NCBI RefSeq assembly: GCF_003999195.1
Contig: NZ_RJVR01000192.1
Location: 1-64,000, forward strand
Direction: 5' to 3'
DNA from: Streptomyces soli
GTDB lineage: Bacteria > Actinomycetota > Actinomycetes > Streptomycetales > Streptomycetaceae
Length of the DNA stretch: 64,000 nt
Both the position numbers and the translations under genes were made by a program. The notes under the pieces are model-generated. The model saw only the letters and a program-made list of their open reading frames with translations. It made no database searches and was not told the origin of the DNA. Of this stretch, positions 19,466-60,057 are shown piece after piece. Position 1 is the stretch's first letter; every line of letters starts with the position of its first letter.

Positions 19466-20085
19466 CGTGCGTGGCAGCCCGCCAGGTGGTCGTTGACCAG
19501 GCCGCAGGCCTGCATCAGCGCGTAGGCCGTGGTGGGGCCGACGAAGCGGAAGCCGCGCTTCTTGAGGTCCTTGGCCAGGGCCGTGGACTCCGGGCTGACG
19601 GCCGGGATGTCGGCGAGCGTGCGCGGGACGGGGCGGGTGGCGGGATCCGGGGCGTAGGACCAGATGAGCGCGTCGAGGCCACCGTCGTACGCCTCGCGCA
19701 GCGCCTGCACGGCGCGGGCGTTGGCGATGGTGGCGTCGATCTTGGCGCGATTACGGATGATGCCCGCGTCCGCGAGCAGCCGCTCGCGGTCGGTATCGGT
19801 GAAGGCCGCGACCTCGTCCGGCTCGAAGCCGTGGAAGGCCTTCCGGAAGCCCTCGCGGCGCCGAAGGATCGTGATCCACGACAGCCCGGACTGGAAGGCC
19901 TCCAGGCACACCCGCTCGAACAGCGCGTCCTCCCCGTGCACCGGGCGGCCCCACTCGGTGTCGTGGTACGCCACGTAGTCCTCGGTGGACAGCCCCCAGG
20001 GGCACCGCAGCAGCCCGTCCGGCCCGGCGACCGCGCCCCGGGCCGGCAGGGGCTGCGCCTGCGGCTGCTCAGCCATGTGAGCCAT
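19450..20085 (-). CDS. tag: DNA-3-methyladenine glycosylase I
   Basis: The product is 211 residues and removes 3-methyladenine from alkylated DNA in base excision repair. The family landmarks are present: RCPWG near the N-terminus, YHDTEWGRPVHGEDALFE, FQSGLSWITILRRREGFRKAF, and the C-terminal zinc ligands in NDHLAGCHAR. Two ATGs (20085 and 20076) are possible and both overlap the end of the upstream DivIVA-like gene (stop 20069), so the genes are coupled. The same pair (DivIVA-like, tagA) neighbours folP2 in mycobacteria. Its 3' end overlaps the enoyl-CoA hydratase gene by 16 bases. Confidence 0.95.
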   Translation of the reverse strand: MAHMAEQPQAQPLPARGAVAGPDGLLRCPWGLSTEDYVAYHDTEWGRPVHGEDALFERVCLEAFQSGLSWITILRRREGFRKAFHGFEPDEVAAFTDTDRERLLADAGIIRNRAKIDATIANARAVQALREAYDGGLDALIWSYAPDPATRPVPRTLADIPAVSPESTALAKDLKKRGFRFVGPTTAYALMQACGLVNDHLAGCHARQRPT

Positions 20086-20428
20086 GCGCCTGGCCGTTCT
20101 CCGGCTCCTTGACCAGGGACGGCGTGCTCAGCGCGGACGCCTGCGCCCCGGCCCGCTCGGCCTCCAGCTCGGCGATCCGGGCGTCCCGCTCGGCCAGTTC
20201 GGCCCCGAGCCGGTCCAGCACCTCGTCCACGTCCACCATGCGATAACCCCGTATGGCCACCGGCAGCCGCAGGTGGTCGATGTCGGCGCGCTCCACCGGG
20301 CGCTCCCCCGGCAGCCGGTCGTCCAGCCGGTCGGGCTCCACATCGCGCAACACCCCGCCGTCGCCGAGCACGGCGAGTGCCACCGCGGCGACCACCGCGA
20401 CCAGGGCGACGAGCATGAACCAGAACAA
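20069..20428 (-). CDS. Small membrane-anchored DivIVA-domain protein
   Basis: The product is 119 residues. An N-terminal membrane helix (MFWFMLVALVAVVAAVALAV) leads to a short linker and a DivIVA N-terminal-like motif (LPVAIRGYRMVDVDEVLDRL), then a coiled coil (LGAELAERDARIAELEAERA). Such proteins probably sit at curved or growing membrane and recruit partners, but no partner is known here. It overlaps tag. In mycobacteria a counterpart lies between gpgS and tagA; here no glucosyl-phosphoglycerate synthase gene lies beside it, only a repeat-containing spacer. Confidence 0.82.
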   Translation of the reverse strand: MFWFMLVALVAVVAAVALAVLGDGGVLRDVEPDRLDDRLPGERPVERADIDHLRLPVAIRGYRMVDVDEVLDRLGAELAERDARIAELEAERAGAQASALSTPSLVKEPENGQAHGSHG

Positions 20429-20773
20429 GACGATCTCCCGGTGGTCCGGACGGACGTGTACGCCACGATCGTGCCACGCCGCGCTGTGATTCGGCAGCGA
20501 CAGTCAAGGGCCCGACTCCCACCGCCCTCCTCGCACTGCTCAGCCCCAGGGGGCCTTCCCACGCTTCGGATGGCTGCGCCCGACTCTCCCCCGGCCGAAG
20601 GCTGGTGGGGGTCCTCCCCCTGGCTTCGCCGGGGGTACCCCCACCGGACGGAGTCTGGGGGAGAGTGCCCACCTCCGGTGATCCGGCGAGGCGCCGTCGG
20701 CCACGGCGCAGACGCCTCAGCGACTAGGGTCGCTGGCAGGCCACTCGGCGGCCACTTCGAGGAGGACTGCGCA
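20429..20773. other. 345-base divergent spacer containing a palindromic repeat
   Basis: It holds the promoters of the DivIVA-like gene (left, near 20440-20490) and folP-like gene (right, 20690-20770), with repeat copy 2 between them. Long open frames crossing it have no start or codon support. Confidence 0.6.
20583..20666. repeat. G/C palindromic repeat, copy 2
   Basis: The ends are ACTCTCCCCC (20583) and GGGGGAGAGT (to 20666). The interior holds a second hairpin, CCCCCTGGCTTCGCCGGGGG. The right half shares ACGGAGTCTGGGGGAGAGT with copy 1, and the left flank GGCTGCGCC also matches. Unlike most copies it lies in a divergent spacer. Confidence 0.8.
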
Positions 20774-21634
20774 ATGCTACGGCTGGGGACACGGGAATTC
20801 GCCCCGCACGAGCCCGTGATCATGGCGATCGTGAATCGCACGCCCGACTCGTTCTACGACCAGGGCGCGACGTTCACCGACGAACCCGCCCTGCAGCGCG
20901 TGGCGCAGGCGGTGTCGGAGGGCGCCGCCATCATCGACATCGGCGGGGTGAAGGCAGGTCCCGGCGAGGAGGTGTCGGCGGAGGAGGAGATCCGCCGGAC
21001 GGTTGCCTTCGTCGCGGAGGTCCGGCGGCGGCACCCGAACGTCGTGATCAGCGTCGACACCTGGCGGCACGAGGTCGGCGAGGCCGCCTGCGAGGCCGGC
21101 GCGGACCTGCTCAACGACGCGTGGGGCGGCGTCGACCCGAAGCTCGCCGAGGTCGCGGCGCGGCATCGGGCCGGCCTGGTCTGTACGCACGCCGGCGGCG
21201 CGGAGCCGCGGACCCGGCCGCACCGGGTCGCGTACGCGGACGTCATGGCGGACATCCTCAAGGTGACCGTCGGCCTCGCCGAGCGCGCCGCCGGCCTGGG
21301 CGTCCGCCGCGACGCGATCCTCATCGACCCGGGGCACGACTTCGGCAAGAACACCCGCCACTCGCTTGAGGCGACCCGGCGGCTGCCCGAGATGGCGGCG
21401 ACGGGGTGGCCGGTGCTCGTCTCCCTGTCCAACAAGGACTTCGTCGGCGAGACGCTCGACCGGCCGGTCAAGGAGCGGCTGATCGGGACGCTCGCGACGA
21501 CCGCGGTGTCGGCGTGGCTCGGGGCGCAGGTGTATCGGGTGCACGAGGTGGCGGAGACGCGGCAGGTGCTTGAGATGGTGGCGTCCATCGCGGGCCACCG
21601 CGCGCCCGCGGTAGCCCGGCGCGGCCTGGCCTGA
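20774..21634 (+). CDS. Dihydropteroate synthase homologue (FolP2 type, motifs degenerate)
   Basis: The product is 286 residues with the pterin-binding TIM-barrel layout: IMAIVNRTPDSFYDQG, IIDIGGVKAGPGEEVS, VISVDTWRHEVGEAAC, LLNDAWGG, and ILIDPGHDFGKNTRHSLE. Two substrate-binding loops deviate from true dihydropteroate synthase: NRTPDSFYD instead of N-V-T-P-D-S-F-S-D, and GGVKAGPG instead of GGESTRPG. Mycobacterial FolP2, in the same gene neighbourhood, is reported to lack the folate activity. I therefore infer a different or lost function. GAGGAGG precedes the ATG well. The convergent neighbour is the LOG gene, separated by a repeat. Confidence 0.85.
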   Translation: MLRLGTREFAPHEPVIMAIVNRTPDSFYDQGATFTDEPALQRVAQAVSEGAAIIDIGGVKAGPGEEVSAEEEIRRTVAFVAEVRRRHPNVVISVDTWRHEVGEAACEAGADLLNDAWGGVDPKLAEVAARHRAGLVCTHAGGAEPRTRPHRVAYADVMADILKVTVGLAERAAGLGVRRDAILIDPGHDFGKNTRHSLEATRRLPEMAATGWPVLVSLSNKDFVGETLDRPVKERLIGTLATTAVSAWLGAQVYRVHEVAETRQVLEMVASIAGHRAPAVARRGLA

Positions 21635-21645
21635 CAGCGCGGGTT

Positions 21646-21806
21646 GTGGGAGAACGTTCCGCTGGGGGTCCTCCCCCAGCCTGGCGGCTGGGTGGGGGCA
21701 CTCCCCCGGCCGAAGGCTGGGGGAGTGCCCCCACCCCCAGACTTCGTCCGGGGGACCCCCACCTCGCTTCGCTCGCCTCAGGCGGACGGCCACCCCCAAC
21801 CCGGAG
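21646..21806. repeat. Composite palindromic repeat, copy 3, between convergent genes
   Basis: Several nested hairpins (GGGGGTCCTCCCCC, GGGGGCACTCCCCCGGCCGAAGG with GGGGGAGTGCCCCC) run from about 21655 to 21775. They are followed by the separate short repeat GGACGGCCACCCCCAACCCGG at 21784-21804. The block fills the spacer between the folP-like stop (21634) and the LOG stop (21810). Confidence 0.8.
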
Positions 21807-21809
21807 GGC

Positions 21810-22607
21810 CTACGTCGCCGCTTCCTTCGTCATCAGGGCGACCGCCTCGTCCACGTCGTCCGTCAGATGCAGGAGCTCCAAATCGATCGCGGAGGCCTTG
21901 CCGCCGTCGACGACGGTGTGGCGGACCCAGTCGATGAGGCCCTGCCAGTAGGAGGTGCCGAAGAGGACGATGGGGAAGCGGGTGACCTTGCGGGTCTGGA
22001 CGAGGGTGAGGGCCTCGAAGAGCTCGTCGAGGGTGCCGAAGCCGCCGGGGAGGACGATGAAGCCGGAGGCGTACTTCACGAACATCGTCTTGCGGACGAA
22101 GAAGTAGCGGAAGTTGACGCCGATGTCGACGTAGGGGTTGAGCCCCTGCTCGAAGGGCAGCTCGATGCCGAGCCCGACCGAGACCCCGCCGCCCTCGACG
22201 GCGCCCCTGTTGGCGGCCTCCATGGAGCCGGGGCCGCCGCCGGTGATGACGCCGAAGCCCGCTTCGGCCAGGGCGCGGCCGATGCCGACGCCGGTCTCGT
22301 AATCGGGGGAGCCGGGCTGGGTGCGGGCGGAGCCGAAGACGCTGACGGCAGGGCCGAGTTCGGCGAGGGAGCCGAAGCCTTCGACGAATTCGGACTGGAT
22401 CCGCATGACCCGCCAGGGGTCTTGGTGCACCCAATCCGACGGCCCCCGGGTGTCCAGCAGGCGCTGGTCCGTCGTGGACGGCTGCACCTGGCCCCTGCGG
22501 CGTACGACGGGGCCCGTCTGCCGCTCCGGCCACGCCTGGCCGTGAGTGCGGCCCTGGGCCGCCGCGTTCTCCGCTACCGCGGCATCTTCCGCGTCTGAGC
22601 TGCTCAT
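21810..22607 (-). CDS. LOG-family protein (cytokinin riboside 5'-monophosphate phosphoribohydrolase-like)
   Basis: The product is 265 residues. After a charged N-terminal extension of about 70 residues comes the Rossmann-like LOG core: AVSVFGSARTQPGSPDYE, VITGGGPGSMEAANRGA and the hallmark LPGGFGTLDELFEAL. These motifs define phosphoribohydrolases formerly annotated as lysine decarboxylases, which release a free base from nucleoside monophosphates. The natural substrate in Streptomyces is unclear. ATG 22607 follows AGGAG at about 8 bases. A LOG gene also sits beside folP2 and dapE in mycobacteria. Confidence 0.9.
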   Translation of the reverse strand: MSSSDAEDAAVAENAAAQGRTHGQAWPERQTGPVVRRRGQVQPSTTDQRLLDTRGPSDWVHQDPWRVMRIQSEFVEGFGSLAELGPAVSVFGSARTQPGSPDYETGVGIGRALAEAGFGVITGGGPGSMEAANRGAVEGGGVSVGLGIELPFEQGLNPYVDIGVNFRYFFVRKTMFVKYASGFIVLPGGFGTLDELFEALTLVQTRKVTRFPIVLFGTSYWQGLIDWVRHTVVDGGKASAIDLELLHLTDDVDEAVALMTKEAAT

Positions 22608-22706
22608 GTCGCGCTCCTTCCGCTGCGGATCGTGCCGCCAGGGTACGCACGCCGTACGGGGGTGGATCAAGAACGCGCCGTTTAATTGCGCGTTACGTAC
22701 ACGCGG

Positions 22707-23774
22707 CTAGGAGAGCCACGCCTTGAGCTTCTCCTCGGCCTCCAGCACCGCCGCGACCGCGACGTGCTCCTCACGGGTGTGGGCCAGCTTGGGGTCCCCG
22801 GGGCCGTAGTTGACCGCGGGCACGCCGAGCGCGGAGAAGAGGGCGACGTCGGTCCAGCCGTCCTTGGGCGCCGGCTCCAGGCCGAGGGCGTCGACGAAGG
22901 CCACGGCGGAGGGGTGCGAAAGGCCGGGGAGGGCGCCGGGGGCGCTGTCGGTGAGCACGACGTCGTAGCCGTCGAAGACCTCGCGTACGTGGGCCAGCGC
23001 CTCCTCTTCCGAACGGTTGGGCGCGAAGCGGTAGTTGACGGTCACGGCGCAGAAGTCCGGGATGACGTTCGTGGCGTGGCCGCCCTCGATCAGGACCGCG
23101 TTCAGCCCCTCGCGGTAGGTCAGGCCGTCGACGGGCACCTGGCGCGGTTCGTACGCGGCGAGCCGGGCCAGGATCGGCGCTGCCTTGTGGATGGCGTTCT
23201 CGCCGAGCCAGGCACGGGCGGAGTGCGCACGCCGGCCCTTCGTCTCCACCCGCACTCGCATGGTGCCCTGGCAGCCGCCCTCGACCTTGCCGTCGCTGGG
23301 CTCGAGCAGCACCGCGAAGTCCCCGGCCAGCCAGTCGGGGTGTCTCTCGGCCAGCCGCTTCAGGCCGTTGAACTCGGCGGCGATCTCCTCGGCGTCGTAG
23401 AAGACGTACGTGACGTCGCGGTTCGGGGCGGGGAGGGTCGCGGCGAGCCGCAGCTGCACGGCGACGCCGGACTTCATGTCCGAGGTGCCGCAGCCCCACA
23501 GGATGCCGTCCGCGTCGAGCCGGGAGGGCAGGTTGTCGGCGATCGGCACGGTGTCGAGGTGGCCGGCCAGGACGACGCGCTCGGCGCGGCCCAGGTTCGT
23601 ACGGGCCACGACCGAGTCGCCGTCGCGGTCGACGGTGAGGTGCGGCAGGGCACGCAGGGCCGCCTCGACGGCGTCGGCGAGGTGCTTCTCCTCCAGGCTC
23701 ACGGAGGGGATGTCGACGAGCTGCGCCGTCACGGCGGCGGCGTCCTGACTGAGGTCGAGTACGGGCTGCTCCAT
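22707..23774 (-). CDS. dapE: Succinyl-diaminopimelate desuccinylase
   Basis: The product is 355 residues of the M20 metallopeptidase family. Metal and catalytic residues are visible: LAGHLDTVP with H72, GTSDMKSG with D99, DAEE at 128-131, and the C-terminal [16 protein letters not shown]. It yields LL-diaminopimelate for lysine and peptidoglycan synthesis, the step after DapC, whose gene is 1.8 kb away. The start ATG 23774 lacks a good ribosome-binding site but has TAGTGT at 23782-23787 on the minus strand, 7 bases upstream, implying a leaderless transcript. The reading frame is open upstream to 24143 but that overlaps the divergent gene. Confidence 0.93.
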
Positions 23775-36540: not shown

Positions 36541-38760
36541 ATGACCGAACCGCTGTCGTTCCCCCGCCAGTACGCCCGGACCCAGCGCTTCACCCTGGGC
36601 GCACCCCGGTCGTTCGCCGTCTCGCCGGACGGGGAGCGGGTGGCCTTCCTCCGCTCCCGTACGGGGACGGACCGGGCGCACCTGCTCTGGGTCCTCGACC
36701 TCGCCACGGGTGAGGAGAGGATCGCCGCCGACCCCGCCGCCCTTCTCGCCGGCGCCGGCGAGGAACTGTCCCCCGAGGAGCGCGCCCGCCGCGAGCGCAG
36801 CCGTGAGGGCTCCGCCGGCGTCGTCGGCTACGCCACGGACGACGCCGCCGAGCTCGCCGCGTTCGCCCTCTCCGGCCGCCTGTTCGTCGCCGATTTGCGC
36901 GCCGGAACCGCCAGGGAACTGGAGGTTCCGGGTCCGGTCGTGGACCCGCGCCCCTCGCCGGACGGCCGGCGGGTGGCGTACGTCTCCAAGGGCGCCCTGC
37001 GCGTCGTGGAAGTTGGGGCACTCCCCCGGACTCCGTCCGGTGGGGGTGCCCCCGGCGAAGCCAGGGGGAGCACCCCCACCCAGCGTCCAGTTGGGGGAGG
37101 GACGGCGGACCGGGCGCTCGCCGAACCGGAGGGCAAGAACATCACGTACGGCCTCGCGGAGTTCATCGCCGCCGAGGAGATGTCCCGCAGTCGTGGCTAC
37201 TGGTGGTCCCCGGACGGCACCGCGCTGCTGACCGCCCGGGTCGACGACTCCCCCGTCGACCGCTGGTGGATCGCCGACCCGGCCAACCCCTCGCAGCCCC
37301 CCGCCGAGGTCGCGTACCCGGCCGCCGGAACGGCGAACGCCGAGGTCACCCTCACCCTCATCCGCCTCGACGGCTCCGCCACCCCCGTCACCTGGGACCG
37401 TGAGGCCTACCCCTACCTCGCCCAGGTCCACTGGTCCCCCGCCGGGCCGCCGCTGCTGCTCGTACAGGCCCGCGACCAGCGCAGTCAGCTCTACCTGACG
37501 GTCGACCCGGGCACAGGCAACACCAGTGCCACGCACAGCGACGAAGACGAAATCTGGCTTGATCTTTTCCCCGGTGTCCCGGCCTGGACCAAAGATGGAC
37601 GACTCCTGCGGATCACGGACGAAAGCGGAGCAAGGGTCGTCGCGGTCGGCCAACTCCAGCTCACCGGGCCGGAGTTGCACGTACGCGCGGTCCTCGACAT
37701 CGCCGATGGCGACATCCTGGTCGCGGCCTCGGCGGGTTCGGCCGCCGCTCTGCCGGAGACCGGCGAGATCCATGTGTACCGGGTCCCGCTCTCCGGCGAT
37801 GCCGGCGCTGTCCGCTTGTCGGAGACCCCCGGGGTCCACTCCGCCGTCCGCTCCGGTGCGGTGACCGTGCTCGCGTCCTCGTCGCTGGACCGGCCCGCGC
37901 CCCTGGTGCGCGTCCTGCACGAGGGCGGCCCCGACAAGCCGCTGGCCGAGATCGCCTCGTACGCCGAGACCCCCGTCCTCACCGCCCGCCCGCTCCTGGA
38001 CGCCGCCGGCGACCGCCGGATCCCGTCCGCCGTCGTCCTGCCCACCGGCTACCGGGAGGGCGACGGACCGCTGCCCGTCCTGATGGACCCGTACGGCGGC
38101 CCGCACGGCCAGATGGTGGTCAGCGCCGGCCGCGCCTACCTCGAGTGCCAGTGGCTCGCCGACCAGGGCTTCGCCGTCGTCGTCGCCGACGGCCGCGGCA
38201 CCCCGGGCCGCTCCCCCGCCTGGGAGAAGGCGATCGCCCACGACTTCGCCGGCGTGACCCTGAACGACCAGGTCGACGCCCTGCGCGCCCTCGCCCGTAC
38301 GTATCCGCTGGACTTGACCCGCGTCGGCATCCGCGGCTGGTCGTACGGCGGCTACCTGGCAGCCCTGGCGGTGCTGCGCCGCCCGGACGTCTTCCACGCG
38401 GGCGTCGCCGGCGCCCCCGTGACCGACTGGCGGCTCTACGACACCCACTACACCGAGCGCTACCTCGGGCACCCCGACGAGCGCCCCGAGGTCTACGCCG
38501 CCAACTCCCTGGTCACCGACGAGGGCCTGTCCGGCGCCGCCGACCGCCTCCGGCCGCTCATGATCATCCACGGCCTCGCCGACGACAACGTGGTCGCCGC
38601 CCACACCCTGCGGCTGTCCTCCGCCCTGCTGGCCGCCGGCCGCCCGCACGAGGTGCTCCCGCTGTCCGGGATCACCCACATGACCCCGCAGGAGCAGGTC
38701 GCCGAGAACCTGCTGCTGCTCCAGGTCGCCTTCCTCAAGCGGTCCCTGGGCGTGGCGTAG
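36541..38760 (+). CDS. S9 (prolyl oligopeptidase/DPP IV-like) serine peptidase with a repeat-derived insertion
   Basis: The product is 739 residues. The first 460 form the beta-propeller-like domain; the rest is an alpha/beta hydrolase. The triad is S601 (GWSYGGYLAA), D681 or D682 (HGLADDN) and H713 (SGITHMT). No signal peptide, so it is cytoplasmic and probably trims Pro-containing peptides. Residues about 160-187 (from ALPRTPSGGG to PVGGG) are encoded by an in-frame palindromic intergenic repeat at 37015-37099, foreign to the family. The ATG at 36541 has TACGCT at 36529-36534, so the mRNA may be leaderless. Confidence 0.9.
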   Translation: MTEPLSFPRQYARTQRFTLGAPRSFAVSPDGERVAFLRSRTGTDRAHLLWVLDLATGEERIAADPAALLAGAGEELSPEERARRERSREGSAGVVGYATDDAAELAAFALSGRLFVADLRAGTARELEVPGPVVDPRPSPDGRRVAYVSKGALRVVEVGALPRTPSGGGAPGEARGSTPTQRPVGGGTADRALAEPEGKNITYGLAEFIAAEEMSRSRGYWWSPDGTALLTARVDDSPVDRWWIADPANPSQPPAEVAYPAAGTANAEVTLTLIRLDGSATPVTWDREAYPYLAQVHWSPAGPPLLLVQARDQRSQLYLTVDPGTGNTSATHSDEDEIWLDLFPGVPAWTKDGRLLRITDESGARVVAVGQLQLTGPELHVRAVLDIADGDILVAASAGSAAALPETGEIHVYRVPLSGDAGAVRLSETPGVHSAVRSGAVTVLASSSLDRPAPLVRVLHEGGPDKPLAEIASYAETPVLTARPLLDAAGDRRIPSAVVLPTGYREGDGPLPVLMDPYGGPHGQMVVSAGRAYLECQWLADQGFAVVVADGRGTPGRSPAWEKAIAHDFAGVTLNDQVDALRALARTYPLDLTRVGIRGWSYGGYLAALAVLRRPDVFHAGVAGAPVTDWRLYDTHYTERYLGHPDERPEVYAANSLVTDEGLSGAADRLRPLMIIHGLADDNVVAAHTLRLSSALLAAGRPHEVLPLSGITHMTPQEQVAENLLLLQVAFLKRSLGVA
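37015..37099. repeat. Palindromic repeat copy 4, in frame inside the S9 peptidase gene
   Basis: About 85 bases contain two hairpins: CCCCCGGACTCCGTCCGG with its GGGGG partner, and GTGCCCCCGGCGAAGCCAGG followed by GGGAGCAC. They match copies 1-3 in intergenic spacers. The copy is open in the peptidase frame and adds roughly 28 codons without disrupting the downstream catalytic domain. Confidence 0.82.
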
Positions 38761-59878: not shown

Positions 59879-60057
59879 AGAGGCCGCGCAATTAGGTGGG
59901 GCGGAGGAAGGAGCGGGGCGAGGGCCGAGTCCGGCAAGGCGGTGGGGGCACTCCCCCACCCAGCCGCCAGGCTGGGTGACGTCGTCGACCGACGACAACG
60001 CCGCCAGGCGAGAGCCACCGGCACGCGACACCGCCCCACCCATTCGCCGCGGCCTCT
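59879..60057. mobile_element. MITE-like element, copy 2 (shorter, ends less perfect)
   Basis: The left end AGAGGCCGCGCAATTAGGTG and the right end (reverse complement of 60031-60057) match imperfectly. The interior shares GGGCCGAGTCCGGCAAGGCG and GACCGACGACAACGCCGCCA with copy 1. A palindrome core (GGGGGCACTCCCCC) is present but smaller. At 179 bases it is 39 shorter than copy 1. Confidence 0.75.

Follow-up and report, generated by a model that had tools for sequence, protein, structure and literature searches.

A FolP2-type dihydropteroate synthase paralogue in Streptomyces soli: residue pattern, gene context and candidate function

FolP2 was found unable to replace FolP1 and has remained an orphan ever since, yet it is annotated automatically as a dihydropteroate synthase (DHPS). 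Such a gene lies in the window analysed here, the first 64,000 nucleotides of contig NZ_RJVR01000192.1 of Streptomyces soli (Table 1), and raises the question of which reaction, if any, is carried out by a DHPS paralogue whose substrate loops are altered. The answer matters also because loss of FolP2 alters sulfamethoxazole (SMX) sensitivity in mycobacteria. Ligand binding by the M. tuberculosis protein, Rv1207, was reportedly tested in a paper of 2008.

Table 1. Features of the FolP2 locus, in window coordinates.
Feature	Position	Strand	Basis or remark
DivIVA-domain protein, divergent from FolP2	20069..20428	-	profile match
AGGAGG ribosome-binding site of FolP2	20760..20765	+	read in sequence
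FolP2-type DHPS paralogue, 286 aa, ATG start	20774..21634	+	ORF reading, PDB match 2vp8, tree clade
FolP2 loop 1 NRTPDSFYD (residues 21-29; canonical NVTPDSFSD)	20834..20860	+	V28R; N27, F33 and D35 equivalents kept
FolP2 loop 2 GGVKAGPG (residues 57-64; canonical GGESTRPG)	20942..20965	+	E65V, S66K, T67A, R68G
FolP2 Asp189 (= BaDHPS G188)	21338..21340	+	Asp in 80/80 FolP2, Gly in 30/30 FolP1
FolP2 SNKDF (residues 219-223)	21428..21442	+	S218 and K220 equivalents kept; S/R221 to Asp
FolP2 RVH	21536..21544	+	R254 and H256 equivalents kept
LOG/TIGR00730 family protein, convergent with FolP2	21810..22670	-	synteny conserved
dapE	22707..23765	-	TIGR01900, 527 bits

Identity and spread of the window gene

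The product of the window gene matches the Pfam Pterin_bind profile across the whole domain (219 bits) and scores 271 bits against TIGR01496, the NCBIfam DHPS equivalog, whose cut-off is 162.6; because of these two scores and the conservation of the loops, the reading frame is not a chance one. As FolP2 stands so far above the TIGR01496 cut-off, automatic annotation would call it a DHPS, and this shows that the model is unable to tell FolP2 from DHPS. The exception models for Sul1-4 gave 68-149 bits, far below their cut-offs of 475-600. Sul1-Sul4 share with FolP2 the DHPS fold and an altered pABA region, although Sul1-3 still produce dihydropteroate, according to a section of PMC10328974.

The best sequence match in the PDB is 2vp8, M. 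tuberculosis Rv1207 or 'dihydropteroate synthase 2' (329 bits, the next DHPS reaching 170), in which the NRTPDSFYD, GGVKAGPG and SNKD loops are all identical to those of the window protein, so that the loops are marks of the family and not peculiar to the window's genome. The sequence-only reading had given the first two loops exactly as they stand in the translation and had pointed to mycobacterial FolP2, a relationship that is now seen to be direct. The loops used as a family test, NRTPDSF(Y/F)D, GGVKAGPG and S(N/R)KD, are all found in the window protein, and in a tree of 66 sequences the 34 FolP2 rows formed one group (support 100/99), apart from the 30 FolP1 rows. The window gene is almost certainly a FolP2 orthologue and not the main DHPS of its genome. 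The protein itself is not new, being the orthologue of mycobacterial FolP2, and a paralogue unable to replace FolP1 has already been published.

The genome of the window (G000, 99.66% complete) holds five Pterin_bind matches. The search for a true folP elsewhere, which the sequence-only reading had proposed, led to contig C39, where a frame with NVTPDSFSDGG and GGESTRPG is followed by an ORF of folB type (named from its sequence); the window gene is therefore not the only folP of its genome. Two further matches are the two frames of a third DHPS on C46, which adjoins a folD-like ORF, and the match on C15, in a frame of 1191 aa, is taken to be metH. Among 46 chosen genomes searched for FolP1, a second DHPS was found in 43 of the 45 that carry FolP2, the other two being 88% and 83% complete, so that FolP2 is carried in addition to FolP1, not in its place. 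Were FolP2 a second, redundant DHPS, its passing of TIGR01496 would follow directly; this is highly improbable, however, since GGESTRPG is gone, since another DHPS is present in the genomes just counted, and since M. leprae folP2, in the kind of complementation data that had been suggested as a check, failed to rescue an E. coli folP mutant (as stated in an excerpt of PMC1971073).

FolP2 was present in 192 of 256 genomes drawn from the window's class, each at least 95% complete, with the cut for FolP2 placed between best E-values of ~1e-55 and ~1e-46; of the 64 genomes without it, 27 belong to one reduced-genome family. Families outside the class have FolP2 as well. The three motif loops are identical in 79/79 Streptomycetaceae proteins (the window and 78 of the 80 loci) while most of the motif codons vary, and in the 78 pairs of the window gene with the folP2 genes of this family the median dN was 0.072, dS 0.649 and dN/dS 0.11, a substitution pattern that shows, at the level of sequence, long-term purifying selection on FolP2.

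Some relatives depart from these forms. The third DHPS of the window's genome occupies overlapping frames at G000:C46:5221-6020 (loci L003, L005, L008 and L009), through either a true frameshift or an assembly error. Locus L077 (G116) was considered as a FolP2 and rejected, being canonical-like and grouping with FolP1 in the tree, whereas L078 (G366) is a deep FolP2 row on a long branch with GGVKAGPG but SNKTCLGV. In Nonomuraea gerenzanensis (L292:12001-12852) loop 2 of FolP2 has diverged further, to GGFAFSAA, with SNKDF, NRTP and DPGHD kept.

Residue pattern of the active site and predicted structure

Residues were compared, in B. anthracis numbering, across an alignment of 80 FolP2 rows (79 from the loci and the window; L077 left out) and 30 FolP1 rows. 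FolP2 shares with canonical DHPS (FolP1: B. anthracis 1tws/3tyd, Y. pestis 3tyz) the TIM barrel and the residues that serve pterin, Mg/PPi and catalysis: N120, D184, K191, S218, K220, R254 and H256 are kept in 80/80 FolP2 rows, and N27 (79, with one gap), F33 (79), D35 (77) and D101 (74, with six Glu) in most. D35 acts in the SN1 step of DHPS. FolP2 differs from canonical DHPS in loop 2, where ESTR becomes VKAG (E65V in 76 of the 80 rows, S66K in 75, T67A in 70, R68G in 71), in loop 1 (V28R, 74), and at R148G (72), G188D (80, against 0/30 in FolP1) and residue 221 (Asp in 78); M145 is also altered. Whereas S66, T67, R68 and G188 are kept in all 30 FolP1 rows, the pABA-contacting loop GGESTRPG with its T67 and R68 occurs in 0/80 FolP2 rows.

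In S. aureus DHPS, F17, P53, F172 and K203 make up the pABA pocket and T51 contacts an oxygen of PPi as well as the amino group of pABA (a passage of PMC6057106); in our own mapping these residues correspond to F33, P69, F189, K220 and T67 of B. anthracis. Ser214 of Sul2 meets the pABA carboxylate, and sulfa selection yields an insertion between residues 186 and 189 of E. coli DHPS, both as described in part of PMC10328974. When set against the mapped pABA contacts, the changes cluster on the acceptor side, at residue 221, in the turn at 188 and in loops 1 to 3. The family-wide changes thus sit in loops or helix ends of the pABA site, and the parts that serve pterin, Mg/PPi and the SN1 step stay, a pattern that suggests transfer of a pterin to a different acceptor. 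This acceptor would probably again be aromatic, since the ring sandwich formed by F33, P69, F189 and K220 is mostly kept (P69 in 74/80 rows, F189 in 71/80, the other two as above), and would not be a benzoate, because the residue on the carboxylate side is Asp. The earlier suggestion that the protein binds a pterin-like ligand and performs another reaction fits this pattern; G188D and R148G, however, alter the pocket too, and with M145, R148 and G188 changed the pterin itself may differ.

The same residues bear on two alternatives. If FolP2 were a non-catalytic pterin-binding or regulatory protein, active in pterin sensing or storage, the disappearance, in all rows, of the contacts that loop 2 makes with pABA and PPi would be understandable, as would the prediction, given in a portion of PMC7809127, that M. 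tuberculosis FolP2 is defective in dihydropteroate synthesis. Such a role is unlikely, though, as the Mg/PPi and catalytic residues N27, D35, K220, R254 and H256 come close to the conservation seen in FolP1, and the altered loops 1 and 2 are themselves conserved, with no decay. Hydrolysis of DHPPP or a related pterin pyrophosphate, with water as the acceptor, would suit an intact PPi/Mg side and the loss of polar acceptor contacts, but a hydrolase would have no need of the ring sandwich, and we consider this quite improbable. The AlphaFold2 model built on 52 rows of FolP2 reached a pLDDT of 94.4; among the 50 structural matches listed, its best TM-scores were to 3tyz and 3tzf, both closed complexes from Y. 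pestis (0.89-0.90), with 2vp8_B at 0.74.

Gene neighbourhoods and co-occurrence

The LOG, DivIVA-like and dapE genes, to which the sequence-only reading had drawn attention as neighbours, are indeed present and conserved, being retained at 78, 80 and 78, respectively, of 80 Streptomycetaceae loci. Together with tag, they all lie on the minus strand in the window, FolP2 standing alone among them on the plus strand, so that FolP2 is not co-transcribed with them and they are not the informative partners; although the synteny is old, the window neighbourhood was therefore rejected as an operon clue. The dapE-LOG-FolP2-DivIVA-DUF3117 gene set is likewise grouped in Tsukamurella, which belongs to the order of M. 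tuberculosis; there FolP2 is flanked by gpgS and an acyl-CoA synthetase gene, all on one strand, whereas FolP2 of the window lies between opposite-strand genes. A search of plasmid records returned nine, three of them actinobacterial, with informative annotation only in Tsukamurella. In high-GC Gram-positive bacteria folP2 clusters with cell wall genes (from the part of PMC1971073 that treats them).

Intergenic repeats resembling GGGGGAGTGCCCCCACCCCC occur at 21688-21738, 37008-37027 and 59938-59957, with four matches in the window against 0.06 expected, and a related repeat lies on the opposite flank of FolP2, at 20586-20620.

The informative partners, a LigB-like gene and an Rv2671-type RibD_C gene, appear only in other families, where FolP2 is the first gene of operons that include them. 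Among 83 FolP2 loci, the window included, a RibD_C gene (Rv2671-type or related) is found directly downstream, in the orientation of FolP2, at 16 (f8 8/8, f7 5/9, f18 2/3, f86 1/1) and a LigB-like gene directly downstream at 10 (f7 7/9, f4 1/1, f5 1/3, f86 1/1), the operon fraction of f7 being biased because four of its nine loci were chosen via nearby RibD_C coordinates. Four of the f8 loci were picked from RibD_C matches, and the f8 set comprises all eight FolP2-bearing f8 genomes of the presence survey; the LigB-like gene is absent in f8. Both partners occur at 6 of the 83 loci, in the order FolP2, LigB-like, RibD_C, and neither was found elsewhere within these loci. No single FolP2 operon common to the whole phylum was found, the context varying by family: it is fadD6-FolP2-gpgS in f3, and in several families outside the window's class genes for a ferredoxin-like protein and HPPD lie downstream. 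Loci L040, L046, L049, L050, L060 and others (f16, f47, f69) have FolP2 followed by a small Cys-containing ferredoxin-like protein (our own naming) and an HPPD-like gene. A NUDIX hydrolase gene adjoins FolP2 on the other strand in 6/6 loci of f9 (L059, L065, L069, L070, L071 and L075); the NUDIX enzyme FolQ belongs to the pterin branch of folate synthesis.

Of the 110 genomes of family f7, 81 have FolP2, and the LigB-like gene was found in 78 of these, directly downstream in 41 and elsewhere, unlinked, in 37; it was found in 2 of the 29 genomes without FolP2, one of these two at only 28 bits (Fisher p 4e-20, phylogeny ignored). Where FolP2 and the LigB-like gene are mostly unlinked, as in genus g10, two of the three genomes without FolP2 are also without the LigB-like gene. 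Among the genomes chosen across the class, the counts were 22/28 with FolP2 and 2/18 without; outside the class they were 2/11 and 2/9, so that there is no such link there. The link of the LigB-like gene to FolP2 is strong within the class. RibD_C was found in 37/39 genomes with FolP2 and 21/41 without at 1e-15, and in 25/39 and 17/41 at a threshold of at least 100 bits, a weak association; in f8 it was found in 8/8 genomes with FolP2 and 0/5 without, and over the phylum in 137/396 genomes, many of which are without FolP2. Taking operons and presence together, the reductase link is strong by operon and weak by presence. All these co-occurrence comparisons ignore phylogeny. In part of the class, FolP2 is judged to act alongside both the LigB-like protein and a reductase of the Rv2671 type, and this conserved set provides FolP2 with specific candidate partners. 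The three genes are unlinked in Streptomycetaceae, those of the window's genome lying on three contigs.

The operons also have a bearing on whether FolP2 might protect from sulfa drugs or natural pABA analogues, by decoy or by consumption. Deletion of folP2 in M. tuberculosis H37Ra raises SMX sensitivity, the same being cited for M. smegmatis (a section of PMC7809127), and 8 of 10 TMP-SMX-evolved Nocardia strains carried folP2 mutations (an extract of PMC7058287). Against such protection, which we regard as decidedly unlikely, stand the wide conservation of FolP2 in the class, the loss of the amine contact T67, and operons that carry reductase and LigB-like genes, not resistance genes.

Candidate partner proteins and the proposed reaction

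For the FolP2-linked RibD_C proteins tested from f8 and f86, the best PDB match is Rv2671 (4xrb), as it is for the RibD_C of the window's genome (C409, L209); the RibD_C of f18 belongs to another subfamily. The DHFR activity of Rv2671 is quite low, according to a passage of PMC10812664. Canonical DHFR was present in all four f8 operon genomes tested, so that the FolP2/RibD_C pair is extra to folate synthesis. A literature search for both Rv2671 and Rv1207 found no paper linking them.

The LigB-like protein, of ~160-270 aa and with a conserved GDGSARRxxKAPG...APYGVGYxVA, had no significant family in Pfam and PDB sequence searches. Its predicted structure (pLDDT 96.2) has its closest fold in 2-aminophenol 1,6-dioxygenase (3vsg_A, TM 0.73, E 4e-12), with other LigB-type dioxygenases and MEMO ranked lower, and the protein may thus be called LigB-type by modelled structure only. 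In class III extradiol dioxygenases a conserved His of the N-terminal PHPP motif binds metal. This His is found in just 10 of 24 LigB-like rows, so that the action of the LigB-like protein as a dioxygenase appears doubtful. In the window's genome its gene (L270:1498-2193, minus strand) lies between ORFs read as miaB and miaA. A cytokinin or tRNA connection, suggested by this position and by LOG beside FolP2, was set aside; a literature search for LigB with miaA/miaB gave no paper.

The transferase reading of FolP2 can be set out with these partners as follows. FolP2 would keep the DHPS half of the reaction, binding 6-hydroxymethyl-7,8-dihydropterin pyrophosphate with Mg2+ and expelling pyrophosphate to give the dihydropterin cation, and its pABA half would have been rebuilt for a different acceptor, to which we infer that the dihydropterin-CH2 group is transferred. 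The resulting conjugate would then be reduced by the Rv2671-type reductase, which has the DHFR fold, and the LigB-like protein may be an acceptor-handling or scaffold subunit. As a whole, the statement that FolP2 transfers dihydropterin-CH2 to an acceptor other than pABA, acting with these two partners, is one for which we see the chances as evenly balanced. If right, it points to an undescribed reduced-pterin compound, and the three-gene set would place Rv1207 and Rv2671, both of them puzzling proteins related to antifolates, in a single pathway.

A tentative and rather doubtful extension is a so far unrecognised shadow-folate pathway in Actinomycetota, in which FolP2 would join the dihydropterin to a non-carboxylated aromatic acceptor and the Rv2671-type enzyme would turn the product into a non-folate tetrahydropterin cofactor. 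The acceptor could be aminophenol-like, because the modelled LigB-like protein folds closest to an enzyme acting on 2-aminophenol. Such a pathway, if true, would also supply the natural role of Rv2671.

Canonical DHFR (PF00186) was not found in 4 of 12 genomes (G000, G107, G087 and G109), two of which are Streptomycetaceae-like; the RibD_C of Rv2671 type, represented by L209 in the genome of the window, could supply the absent DHFR activity.
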